A stretch of 28,254 bases of DNA, taken from a virus. This document shows positions 276 to 28,044 of this stretch, piece by piece; position 1 is the stretch's first letter; each line of letters starts with the position of its first letter. Under the pieces are notes generated by a model. That model made no database searches and was not told where the DNA came from. It was given only the letters and a program-made list of their open reading frames with translations. Where the stretch lies: IMG/VR virus record IMGVR_UViG_3300029892_000014, positions 1-28,254 of that record. The stretch is one strand, 5' to 3'. Position numbers and translations under genes: made by a program.

Positions 276-379
276 TGCGCACCGCGGCTGTGTTCCTGCG
301 GTTACTTTTCGCCGGCCGGTGGCGGATGCTTCGGCACGCGCGCTGGATCGCGGATTACGAACGTGAGGCGCGGCGATGA
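275..379 (+). CDS. 34-aa basic micro-ORF coupled to the primase gene
   Basis: A 34-residue ORF fills the gap between the preceding gene and the primase-helicase. Its ATG overlaps the upstream stop as TGATG, and its own TGA overlaps the primase ATG as ATGA. The product starts with a hydrophobic patch (AAVFLRLLFAG) followed by a strongly basic stretch (RWRMLRHARWIADYEREARR). It could be a tiny amphipathic or DNA-interacting protein, or simply a leader ORF coupling ribosomes into the primase gene. The double overlap is the main evidence that it is translated. No family is recognised. Confidence 0.5.
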   Translation: MRTAAVFLRLLFAGRWRMLRHARWIADYEREARR

Positions 380-2097
380 AAGACTGGTCCCAGACTGGCA
401 TCGACCTGCGCGGCAAAGCGGGCGGCGAAATCAAGACGACCTGCCCGCGCTGCTCTTCCTCGCGGAAGAAGAAGAACTATCCATGCCTGAACGTCAACAT
501 CGACGAGGGCGTATGGCACTGCTGGCACTGCGGCTGGGCCGGTTCACTGAAGCAGGGCGAGTTCCAGCGACCGACGCTTGCGAAGGCCTACCGGAAACCC
601 GACTACGTTAGCCGGGCCAAGCCGCTGCCCGACAAGGCGCAGGAGTGGTTCGCGAAGCGCGGCATCACGCAGGCGGTGCTGCAGCGAAACATGGTGGCCA
701 CCGGCTCGGCCTACTTCCCGCAGTGCGAGGAAGAGCGCGGCTGCGTGATGTTCCCGTACCGGCGGCGCGGCGAGGTCGTCAACGTCAAGTACCGCACCTT
801 CGACAAGCTGTTCCGCATGGAGGGCGGCTGCGAGCGCGTTTTGTACGGCCTGGACGACATCGGCGAGCGGCTGGTGTGGGTCGAGGGCGAGATCGACAAG
901 CTGTCGGTCGAGGTGGCGGGCATCACTTCCTGCGTGAGCGTGCCCGACGGCGCACCAGCGCCGGACAGCAAGAGCTACGAGAACAAGTTCGACTTCCTCG
1001 ATGCGCCCGAGATCGGCCGCGCCTCGGTGCACGTCATCGCGGTGGACAACGACGCCCCTGGCCTGCGTTTGCGCGATGAGCTGATCCGGCGGCTGGGCCC
1101 CGAGAAGTGTCGCATCGTCGACTGGCCGGACGGCTGCAAGGACGCCAACGACGTCTTGGTGCAGCTCGGCGTCGACGTGCTGCTTGACTGTCTGAACGGC
1201 GCGCGCGAGCTGCCGATCGTTGGCGCACACGAGGTGACTGACTACCTGGATGACATCCAGCGGCTGTACCGCGAGGGTGTGCCGCGCGGTGTCAGTACCG
1301 GCTGGTCATCGGTCGACGAGCACTACAACGTCCGGCCTGGCGATGTGACTGTTGTCACCGGCGCTCCTAACTCCGGCAAGTCCGAATGGCTGGACGCGCT
1401 GATGGTGAACCTCGCCGGCCTGCATGGCTGGCGCTTCGGTGTGTACTCGCCCGAGCAAGGCTCACCGGCCGAGCACATCGCGAAGCTGGCCGAGAAGCGC
1501 ACTGGCAAGCCGTTCAACCCGGGCAAGAACGAGCGCATCAGCCCCGCCGGGCTGGATCAGGCGTTGACGTGGATCGGCGATCACTTCACCTGGATCGCGC
1601 CGGAGGAGCCGAGCCTGCGCGCGCTGCTCTACGTGGCGCAGCAGCTGGTTCTGCGACGCGGTGTCCGCGGGCTGGTGTTCGACCCGTGGAACGAGATCGA
1701 GCACAGCCGGCCGCGCGACCAGACGGAGACCGAGTACGTGGGCGAAAGCCTGCGCGCGATCCGCCAGTTCGCGAAGTCGCACCAGGTGCACGTCTGGGTC
1801 GTCGCGCACCCGCAGAAGCTGCAGAAGGACCCGAAGTCTGGGCAGTACCCGGTAGCCGGTCCATACGAGATCAGCGGCTCGGCGAATTGGCACAACAAGC
1901 CCGACGTGTGCATCAGCGTGTGGCGCAAGCGCGGCCCGGATGCCGGCGACGGGATGGTCGAGATCCACGTCCAGAAGGTGCGCAGCAAGTACGTCGGCCG
2001 GCTGGGCATGGTGCAACTGCAATGGAACGCATTGACCGGGCGCTACTCCGACCCGGCCGCCGCGGACCGCTACAGGAACAAGGGGATCGAGGAATGA
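376..2097 (+). CDS. T7 gp4-like primase-helicase
   Basis: This 573-residue protein, close to the 566 of T7 gene 4 protein, should act at the replication fork, unwinding DNA and making RNA primers. An N-terminal zinc finger is visible with C23, C26, C49 and C52. A TOPRIM primase core follows, with the E170-G-E-x-D motif and the acidic pair D224/D226 (VDND). The C-terminal half is a DnaB/RecA-type hexameric helicase with Walker A at residues 329-336 (GAPNSGKS) and Walker B near D436 (GLVFDPWNE). A later VWVVAHP stretch fits the sensor-like helicase motif. The start is fixed by an ATGA overlap with the micro-ORF, and the stop overlaps the next gene in the same way. It is probably cotranscribed and coupled with the replication protein downstream. 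Confidence 0.95.
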   Translation: MKDWSQTGIDLRGKAGGEIKTTCPRCSSSRKKKNYPCLNVNIDEGVWHCWHCGWAGSLKQGEFQRPTLAKAYRKPDYVSRAKPLPDKAQEWFAKRGITQAVLQRNMVATGSAYFPQCEEERGCVMFPYRRRGEVVNVKYRTFDKLFRMEGGCERVLYGLDDIGERLVWVEGEIDKLSVEVAGITSCVSVPDGAPAPDSKSYENKFDFLDAPEIGRASVHVIAVDNDAPGLRLRDELIRRLGPEKCRIVDWPDGCKDANDVLVQLGVDVLLDCLNGARELPIVGAHEVTDYLDDIQRLYREGVPRGVSTGWSSVDEHYNVRPGDVTVVTGAPNSGKSEWLDALMVNLAGLHGWRFGVYSPEQGSPAEHIAKLAEKRTGKPFNPGKNERISPAGLDQALTWIGDHFTWIAPEEPSLRALLYVAQQLVLRRGVRGLVFDPWNEIEHSRPRDQTETEYVGESLRAIRQFAKSHQVHVWVVAHPQKLQKDPKSGQYPVAGPYEISGSANWHNKPDVCISVWRKRGPDAGDGMVEIHVQKVRSKYVGRLGMVQLQWNALTGRYSDPAAADRYRNKGIEE

Positions 2098-2960
2098 CTG
2101 CGGACCTGCCGCAACCGCTTGTGCCGGCCGACGTGGACCTGCGCAACTTTGGCTACCTGCAGCTGGATGTGCTCCGGCTGCGCGACTCGGATCTTGCCGC
2201 ACTGTCGACCGGCGACGAGTTCAAGGCCGCCGTGATGCTGTGGTGCGTGGCCTGGCACCAGGTGCCCGCTGCTTCACTGCCTGACGACGATCGCCTGCTT
2301 GCTCGGTTCAGCGGCGCCGGCCCGCAGTGGAAGAAGGTCCGCGAAGGCGCGCTGCGTGGTTTCGTGAAGTGCTCCGACGGTCGGCTCTATCACCGAATCC
2401 TGGCCGAGAAGGCGATGGAGAGCTGGGCCAAGAAGATCGCTCAACGTGAGCGCACGGCTGCGGCGACAGCAGCGCGTGAAAAGCGGCGACGTGCGCAGTC
2501 TGAACAACGTGACGTTCAACGTGACGTTCAACGTGACGTTCAACGTGACGTTCAACGTGACGTTCAACGTGACGTTCAACGTGACGCAGAACGTGACGTT
2601 CTCCAAGGGAGAGGAGAGGAGAGGAGAGGAGAAGAAAAGAAAGAAAAGACTTCCCGGCCTGCGGCCGGCGAAGGTTTGCCCGATCCGCCGCCAGACCCGG
2701 GCCGGGAACTGTGGGCGAATGCGGTGCAGATGCTGCGCGACCAGGGCGTGAGCGAAGCATCGGCTCGCAGCTTCATCGGCCTGCAGTGCCGAACGTGGGA
2801 CGACGACACCGTCGCGGAAGCGTTCTCGGCCGCTGCTGGGCAGGCGAACGTCAAGGCCTACGTGCTTGCGGTGCTCAAGGGCAAGCCGAAGAAGGGCGAG
2901 AAGCCGGCGGGCGTTGAGTTTCGGCATGGGCAGGCAACGATTGGCGGCTTTGTGCCGTGA
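2094..2960 (+). CDS. DUF1376 (YdaU-like) replication protein with internal QRDV repeats
   Basis: This encodes 288 residues. Residues 10-115 match the DUF1376/YdaU type (DVDLRNFGYLQLDVLRLRDS, then TGDEFKAAVMLWCVAWHQVP and CSDGRLYH), a winged-helix-like domain common in phage replication-initiation genes. Residues 138-169 are eight tetrapeptides: six QRDV, then QRDA and ERDV. A Glu/Lys/Arg-rich linker comes next, and then a compact C-terminal domain of about 80 residues (LWANAVQMLRDQGVSEASAR, later AYVLAVLKG). The ATG overlaps the primase stop, and longer in-frame ORF upstream of it is only a shadow of the primase gene. The repeat DNA looks like replication iterons, so the protein may bind its own gene as lambda O does. 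The family call is solid; the initiator role is inferred. Confidence 0.85.
   Translation: MTADLPQPLVPADVDLRNFGYLQLDVLRLRDSDLAALSTGDEFKAAVMLWCVAWHQVPAASLPDDDRLLARFSGAGPQWKKVREGALRGFVKCSDGRLYHRILAEKAMESWAKKIAQRERTAAATAAREKRRRAQSEQRDVQRDVQRDVQRDVQRDVQRDVQRDAERDVLQGRGEERRGEEKKEKTSRPAAGEGLPDPPPDPGRELWANAVQMLRDQGVSEASARSFIGLQCRTWDDDTVAEAFSAAAGQANVKAYVLAVLKGKPKKGEKPAGVEFRHGQATIGGFVP
2505..2600 (+). repeat. eight tandem 12-bp iteron-like repeats
   Basis: Six identical copies of CAACGTGACGTT run from 2505 to 2576. A seventh unit (2577-2588) ends in CA instead of TT, and an eighth (2589-2600) begins with G. Each unit contains the dyad AACGT-G-ACGTT, a 5-bp inverted repeat around one base, as expected for a protein-binding iteron. 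The period is a multiple of three, so the reading frame is kept and encodes QRDV. Location inside a replication-protein gene, immediately before a purine tract, resembles the lambda origin inside gene O. Confidence 0.85.
2605..2649 (+). other. 45-nt pure purine tract next to the iterons (candidate unwinding element)
   Basis: Every base from 2605 to 2649 on the + strand is A or G. The first part is GGAGA-type repeats. The last 20 or so bases are mostly A and form one of the most AT-rich patches in this GC-rich window. Strand-asymmetric, A-rich DNA beside iterons is the arrangement of the lambda origin, so this could be the region that melts first. It also encodes the Glu/Lys/Arg linker of the replication protein. 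The role is inferred. Confidence 0.5.
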
Positions 2961-27399: not shown

Positions 27400-27878
27400 T
27401 GCCCTTCGACGGCCGATCGCTGATCGGCGAAGCGCTCGACCAGGCGCTGCCGGTCATCGCCTACTATGAGGGCTGCGCCGCTCGCGTGCCGCGCACCGGG
27501 CTCTATGTCCCGTACCTCTGCCCGGCGGGTTACTGGACGATCGGCTACGGCCGCCTGGTGCCGCGCGATCATCCACCGATCACGCACGGCGAGGCGCGCA
27601 TGTTCCTCGAAACCGACACTTTGCGGCACCTGCGCTACGCGCTCGAGGCCTCGCCGATCCTGGCGTGCTACCCGCGGCGGCTGGCCGCGATCACTTCGTT
27701 CGTGTTCAACCTGGGCGCCGGCGCCTACCGGGCGAGCACGCTGCGCCGTTGCATCAACGCGCAGGACTGGGACGGCGCGCGCATGCAGATCGTGCGCTGG
27801 GTGCGCGGCGGCGGTAAGGTGCTGCCCGGCTTGGTGAAGCGGCGCCAGGCCGAGGCCGAGCTGCTTGGCCGGGTGTAA
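27399..27878 (+). CDS. GH24 endolysin (T4-type lysozyme)
   Basis: This encodes 159 residues, the usual size. It hydrolyses the glycan strands of peptidoglycan. The catalytic Glu is E24 (AYYEGC). The second catalytic position, Asp20 in T4, is C41 here, and Thr is T47 in YWTIGYG, keeping the five-residue spacing between the last two. Cys in that slot is known in lambdoid endolysins. The GYGR end (usually GYGH) is less typical. AITSFVFNLGAGAYRASTLR is the conserved family helix. No export signal is visible, so it should depend on the holin. Confidence 0.9.
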   Translation: MPFDGRSLIGEALDQALPVIAYYEGCAARVPRTGLYVPYLCPAGYWTIGYGRLVPRDHPPITHGEARMFLETDTLRHLRYALEASPILACYPRRLAAITSFVFNLGAGAYRASTLRRCINAQDWDGARMQIVRWVRGGGKVLPGLVKRRQAEAELLGRV

Positions 27879-28044
27879 ACCGGGTGTAATTCGGGGGCCG
27901 AAATGGGCCGACCTCACCGCCGAACTGCGCGGCGCAATCATCACGCTCATGGTGATCGCCGGCTGGAACGGCGTGCGCGACTACTGGATGGGGTCGAGCG
28001 AGGGCAGCAACCGCAAGACCGAAATGATGCGGCGTGAACGTTGA
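27865..28044 (+). CDS. small single-pass membrane protein after the endolysin
   Basis: A TTG at 27865, preceded by GAGG and overlapping the endolysin end, opens 59 codons. The ORF carries WADLTAELRGAIITLMVIAG, a likely membrane helix, and a basic tail (NRKTEMMRRER). Third positions are strongly G/C in this frame, supporting real coding from about 27890. The exact start is uncertain. It stands where a spanin is expected, but no Rz-like coiled coil or lipobox is seen. Confidence 0.5.
   Translation: MAGCKPGVIRGPKWADLTAELRGAIITLMVIAGWNGVRDYWMGSSEGSNRKTEMMRRER

Follow-up and report, generated by a model that had tools for sequence, protein, structure and literature searches.

In phage lambda and the Stx phages the replication origin lies centrally within the initiator gene, where dyad iterons stand beside an AT-rich tract at which the duplex opens, and the number of iterons differs between phages (PMC7466680). 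In SPP1 the initiator gp38 binds direct repeats within its own gene (oriL), beside an AT-rich opening element, and is accompanied by a loader and a DnaB-type helicase (PMC6316719). The Rac prophage also has an active origin, oriJ (PMC3945230). In the stretch of DNA analysed here, a virus record of 28,254 bases (the window), an array of dyads and an adjoining purine tract occupy the middle of a gene for a DUF1376 protein (Table 1), and we consider it very likely that together they form a lambda O-type origin of phage replication located within a gene. A sequence-only reading of the same DNA had proposed a lambda-like origin at this place, a proposal that now gains support, at the level of sequence, from codon use, changes of reading frame, the position between two protein domains and the adjacent purine tract. 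The details that it had measured, eight dyad iterons followed by 45 purines inside the DUF1376 gene, are all correct to the base, and its identification of the next gene upstream as a primase-helicase is borne out by matches to PHROG 239 and Pfam.

Table 1. Features of the putative origin locus in the window.
Feature	Position	Strand	Basis or remark
Primase/helicase gene, 573 aa, directly upstream of the DUF1376 gene	376–2097	+	PHROG 239, Pfam
DUF1376 replication-initiator gene, 288 aa, containing the origin candidate	2094–2960	+	PF07120, PHROG 22470
N-terminal globular domain, predicted winged-helix-like	2106–2438	+	AlphaFold2 pLDDT 97, pTM 0.89
Long basic helix prolonging the N-domain, MESWAKKIAQRERTAAATAAREKRRRA; proposed specificity helix, class RTxxAT	2394–2501	+	
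Eight 12-bp dyad iterons, AACGT-n-ACGTT, core CGTnACG	2505–2600	+	Head-to-tail repeats
Conserved junction box CCAAGGGAGA; CCAAGGGACA in most relatives	2603–2612	+	IMG/VR contigs
Purine tract of 45 bases with GGAGA repeats and an A-rich tail; proposed site of opening/loading	2605–2649	+	
Separate C-terminal module, presumed helicase/replisome contact	2650–2960	+	Shared with L002

The ORF that holds the array was matched by the Pfam scan to PF07120 (DUF1376) with E = 4e-12 and 46.8 bits, above the curated cut-off of 30.1, and to PHROG 22470, annotated as 'replication protein', at 1e-46. The model of its N-terminal domain gives weak matches in BFVD to the N-domains of phage DUF1376, replisome-organiser and Lin1244-like proteins. 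In the AlphaFold2 model of the extended domain, residues 97–132 form a single continuous helix (block pLDDT 91–96) that carries the class-defining residues described below. The array lies ∼400 nt inside the gene and is placed between the DUF1376 domain with this helix on one side and the C-terminal module on the other. The upstream ORF matches PHROG 239 (DNA primase/helicase) at 2e-83, with Toprim_2 and AAA_25 above the Pfam cut-off and DnaB_C just under it, and its stop overlaps the start of the DUF1376 ORF. Downstream are small ORFs and then a RusA-like gene. Other family members, unlike the window, have a loader and DnaB downstream. As replication neighbours, a DnaC-type loader and DnaB are present in Hali, Solano and D14L, and DnaB in phi297. 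DUF1376 genes are also found in two circular records listed as plasmids in PLSDB, both phage-like genomes (L240, Herbaspirillum, 43 kb; L241, Acinetobacter, 41 kb). The cumulative GC skew of the window shows no turn near 2.5 kb and is uninformative, nearly all genes being on one strand. At the far end of the window an exact 11-bp tandem, CCGGGTGTAAA, is located at the end of the lysozyme ORF (27869–27889).

Consecutive dyads within a gene that encodes a DNA-binding protein would also fit autoregulation, in which the array serves as an operator through which the DUF1376 protein represses or otherwise regulates its own gene or operon and no replication starts there. The layout as such does not discriminate between the two readings, but the sites are far from the start of the gene, they regularly adjoin the purine tract and the C-terminal module, and the neighbouring genes encode helicase, loader and primase. 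An operator is thus considered unlikely.

The array consists of six copies of CAACGTGACGTT followed by CAACGTGACGCA and GAACGTGACGTT. The 11-mer AACGTGACGTT, a dyad around one free centre base, is perfect in seven of the eight units and has seven further matches in the window, all with two mismatches. Under the phage's own codon usage, the encoding of QRDV as CAA-CGT-GAC-GTT has a probability of ∼2e-4 per unit, a value that applies to single units, since copies made by slippage are not independent of one another. Chance is far from sufficient to explain the array. The iteron copy number is variable, either biologically or through assembly, because a second contig (L080) is identical to the window over 4,937 bases without mismatch, the sole difference being one 12-bp unit (seven units versus eight). 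This contig (DYFW01000028.1, 28,143 bases) is filed under a Thiobacillus denitrificans MAG obtained from mine metagenomes and represents a phage nearly identical to that of the window; from its context the host of the window may be Thiobacillus or a neighbour. The dyad has one other home: the 21-mer AACGTGACGTTCAACGTGACG is present in eleven viral contigs without DUF1376 (L068–L078), which share an unrelated type of gene, encoding the conserved peptide VNVTFNVTA, and have two units only. This occurrence was taken as coincidence.

The near-identity of the units in the window, the difference of a single unit between near-identical contigs and the location between two protein domains would all suit a mere coding repeat, that is, a charged, flexible linker that expanded by slippage and the DNA of which has no role of its own. 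The relatives, which were gathered from phage records, IMG/VR and GTDB genomes, speak against this. The core CGTnACG is found in 22 non-redundant genes, mostly with 12-bp spacing, and is kept in all three reading frames despite unrelated peptides: 107 units are in frame 0 (Arg-Asp/Asn/His), ten in frame 2 and seven in frame 1. The ten units in the Val-Thr frame include every unit of L142, L168 and L226 (peptide SVTD), and in L144, L148 and L153 units occur in two frames within one gene. Arg-[DNHY] pairs are written as CGT-NAC in 110 of 120 cases in the array compared with four of 87 in the remainder of these genes (Fisher 7e-41). The rare CGT codons are fixed, while the centre base of the dyad, which changes the residue in the main frame, is free (56 G, 35 A, 19 C and 14 T). 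Perfect type A dyads number 102 versus 36.5 expected under synonymous recoding; the corresponding values for two control stretches of the same genes are 286 versus 276 and 275 versus 251. Because the core is maintained in three frames with a CGT-NAC codon bias, a free centre and an excess over synonymous recoding, there is strong evidence from these comparisons that selection acts on the DNA rather than on the peptide. The sequence-only reading had held that relatives keeping the QRDV peptide and losing the DNA dyads would speak against an origin; the opposite is seen, as L142, L168 and L226 drop QRDV and keep CGTnACG. The coding-repeat explanation is largely refuted by the codon and frame data together with the dyad excess, and we regard it as very unlikely.

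At the equivalent place, other members of the family carry different dyads, including TGTnACA, GTCCCnnGGGAC, TGCCnnGGCA, TTCCnnnGGAA and others. The AACGTGACGTT type is only one among several iteron types in the family, a diversity that had not been foreseen. The dyad type matches the segment just past the DUF1376 domain without exception in the 80 classifiable genes, as judged with helix-class regular expressions that were written after viewing the data: RTxxAT is paired with CGTnACG (22 of 22 genes), RTxxARxA with TGTnACA (11 genes), TECARIKK with GTCCC/GGGAC (37 genes) and RSxxxNxxRW with ATCCC/GGGAT (ten genes). In a further nine genes of these helix classes the repeat type was unassignable. 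The ATCCC/GGGAT iterons (class D) are poorly defined, because they show no dyad excess (13 versus 24 expected under synonymous recoding). In the held-out set of 69 genes, which is the only independent one, the frozen rules found the expected dyad in eight of eight genes of class j, 16 of 19 of class c, three of four of class b and two of three of class a, the class a expression having misfiled one gene (L256) that belongs to class j by its repeats; cross-hits between these classes were almost absent. In a tree built from only the DUF1376 domain the repeat type changes 19 times, versus 40.7 times with shuffled labels (minimum 32). The correspondence between helix and dyad is observed, and the causal relationship behind it is inferred, because the helix-coding and iteron DNA are adjacent and linkage alone could preserve the pairing.

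The same correspondence bears on the idea that the array is a phage partition (centromere-like) or recombination site bound by another protein. Iteron arrays serve partition systems too, and the two circular PLSDB records contain family members; against this, the repeat type tracks the helix class of the DUF1376 protein, and neither the window nor the annotations of most relatives contained a recognisable partition gene, although phi297 does have one that is ParA-like. We consider a site of this kind highly improbable.

A comparison of the window with L002 reveals a modular exchange. The C-terminal parts are identical at 267 of 311 bases (86%) and the N-domains at 217 of 345 (63%), and the repeats are unrelated. 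Helix and iterons have changed jointly with retention of the C-terminal module, as would be expected if the N-terminal part and the iterons form one specificity unit. We are nearly evenly divided, leaning slightly against, on the wider reading that these genes represent a large phage initiator family in which the intragenic origin can be exchanged as a cassette and the iterons are recognised, through a legible code, by a short basic helix. The proposed code would pair RTxxAT with CGTnACG, RTxxAR with TGTnACA, TECARIKK with GTCCCnnGGGAC, RAAKRW with TGCCnnGGCA and DRxRK with TTCCnnnGGAA. In such a cassette the purine tract and C-terminal module would stay in place while helix and iterons swap together, and replication specificity could change in one recombination step. 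A pair of helices would enter the major groove much as a bZIP basic region does, without demonstrable homology. The class-B helices (RTEAARRAR) resemble the basic region of GCN4, but a PDB search with a profile built from 11 of them returned no chain at E values up to 10, and bZIP homology was rejected, with only the analogy kept. If the proposal is correct, several natural helix–dyad classes would make origin specificity testable by swapping a few residues.

The purine tract stands out in the window, where the second-longest purine run is 13 bases, and its tail has 71% A+T over positions 2630–2650. It is a GGAGA variant with an A-rich tail; in relatives the tract is usually (GGGACA)n. Of the 45 IMG/VR contigs with an exact match to the 20-mer CCAAGGGACAGGGACAGGGA, 44 have a same-strand DUF1376 domain 112–271 nt upstream; in the exception the match begins 82 nt from a contig edge. 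This pattern was drawn from family members, and the informative part is its exclusiveness; the DNA of the tract is by itself enough to detect further family members among contigs. Translation of the (GGGACA)n tract occurs in three frames, as Gly-Gln at 66 loci, Gly-Thr at 22 and Arg-Asp at five (17, seven and one, respectively, at held-out loci). In a profile of 91 family genes the purine fraction is 0.90, partly owing to the choice of anchor, and then 0.84 in the first two 15-nt blocks past the box, after which the GC content falls to 0.50 and returns to 0.64–0.69 downstream. A 30-nt stretch with at least 26 purines is present in 140 of 214 genes and its pyrimidine equivalent in two of 145. 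The purine tract is itself a conserved DNA element, which the sequence-only reading had not anticipated. An AAAGATC box, mostly AAAGATCAAGAG, is located 3′ of the tract in five Pseudomonas-phage-like members (L007, L013, L014, L016 and L018). Coding-strand G-clusters favour R-loops and GGGACA repeats can yield four G-runs, but it is highly improbable that the tract is a regulatory RNA or an R-loop or G-quadruplex element in transcription, with the iterons secondary, as the Rfam search gave no match, the window tract past the box has GG and not GGG runs, and tract and iterons co-occur.

The sequences show the conservation at the level of DNA, the arrangement of the parts, the match of helix and dyad and the modular exchange; for the intragenic origin, we infer from these features binding, opening, helicase recruitment and origin activity as follows. 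The initiator, through its predicted winged-helix DUF1376 domain and basic helix, would bind the 12-bp dyad iterons as dimers in the middle of its own coding sequence. Crowding of initiator on the array may strain the adjoining purine/A-rich tract and lead to opening, with the purine strand of the opened tract providing an asymmetric landing site. The C-terminal module would then recruit the replicative helicase, which here is probably the upstream primase-helicase and elsewhere in the family would be a DnaC-like loader with DnaB. The tract, purine-rich yet only moderately AT-rich, speaks against an origin, as does the gene order of the window, which is unlike that of lambda O–P. The architecture is of a known kind, while the initiator family, the iteron classes and the helix–dyad match look undescribed. 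In a literature search that missed most subscription journals, no paper was found that ties DUF1376 to a replication origin, and GGGACAGGGACA appeared in two unrelated papers only. DUF1376 still carries the label 'unknown function'; if the proposal is correct, many phages and prophages of Alpha-, Beta- and Gammaproteobacteria gain an origin predicted to the exact base, together with an initiator whose binding site is predicted too.

Among known systems, a fold search of the PDB with the N-domain model gave no significant match. The RepA_N-type plasmid initiators 4pql, 4pt7 and 5kbj were the top-ranked solved structures, a weak likeness (Foldseek E ∼0.1, Z ∼4) that is no evidence of membership. 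The likeness to SPP1 and the Gram-positive replisome organisers consists of the layout and the weak BFVD fold matches of the N-domain; the differences are the lack of a significant sequence match, other iterons and another tract, and Gram-negative hosts. In the Rac prophage of E. coli K-12, the DUF1376 gene ydaU is followed by an ATP-binding gene and contains, in the equivalent region, repeats together with a purine stretch that is A-rich, although YdaU is a distant DUF1376 member with other repeats. These repeats (L242:2972–3140) are built around TGTTCAAACA with an 11-bp inverted pair, followed by AAAGATACAGATAAAGATC, and are a candidate for the Rac origin. As in lambda, the origin candidate of the window is inside the initiator gene, between the DNA-binding and C-terminal parts, and has several dyad iterons under constraint at the DNA level. 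The lambda iterons are imperfect inverted repeats of ∼19 bp compared with the 12-bp units of the window, and its opening tract is AT-rich, whereas the tract of the window consists of G/A repeats; the purine asymmetry is strong, and in the family profile the GC content falls only to 0.50 compared with 0.68 downstream. In lambda O–P the loader gene is directly downstream, whereas in the window a primase-helicase fusion gene is upstream. No Pfam match to the lambda O family was obtained, the window and 22 of 22 relatives being matched by DUF1376 and none by the O family. The locus would work like a lambda-type intragenic origin, yet with an initiator that is not a lambda O protein, because the sequence scans give DUF1376 only.
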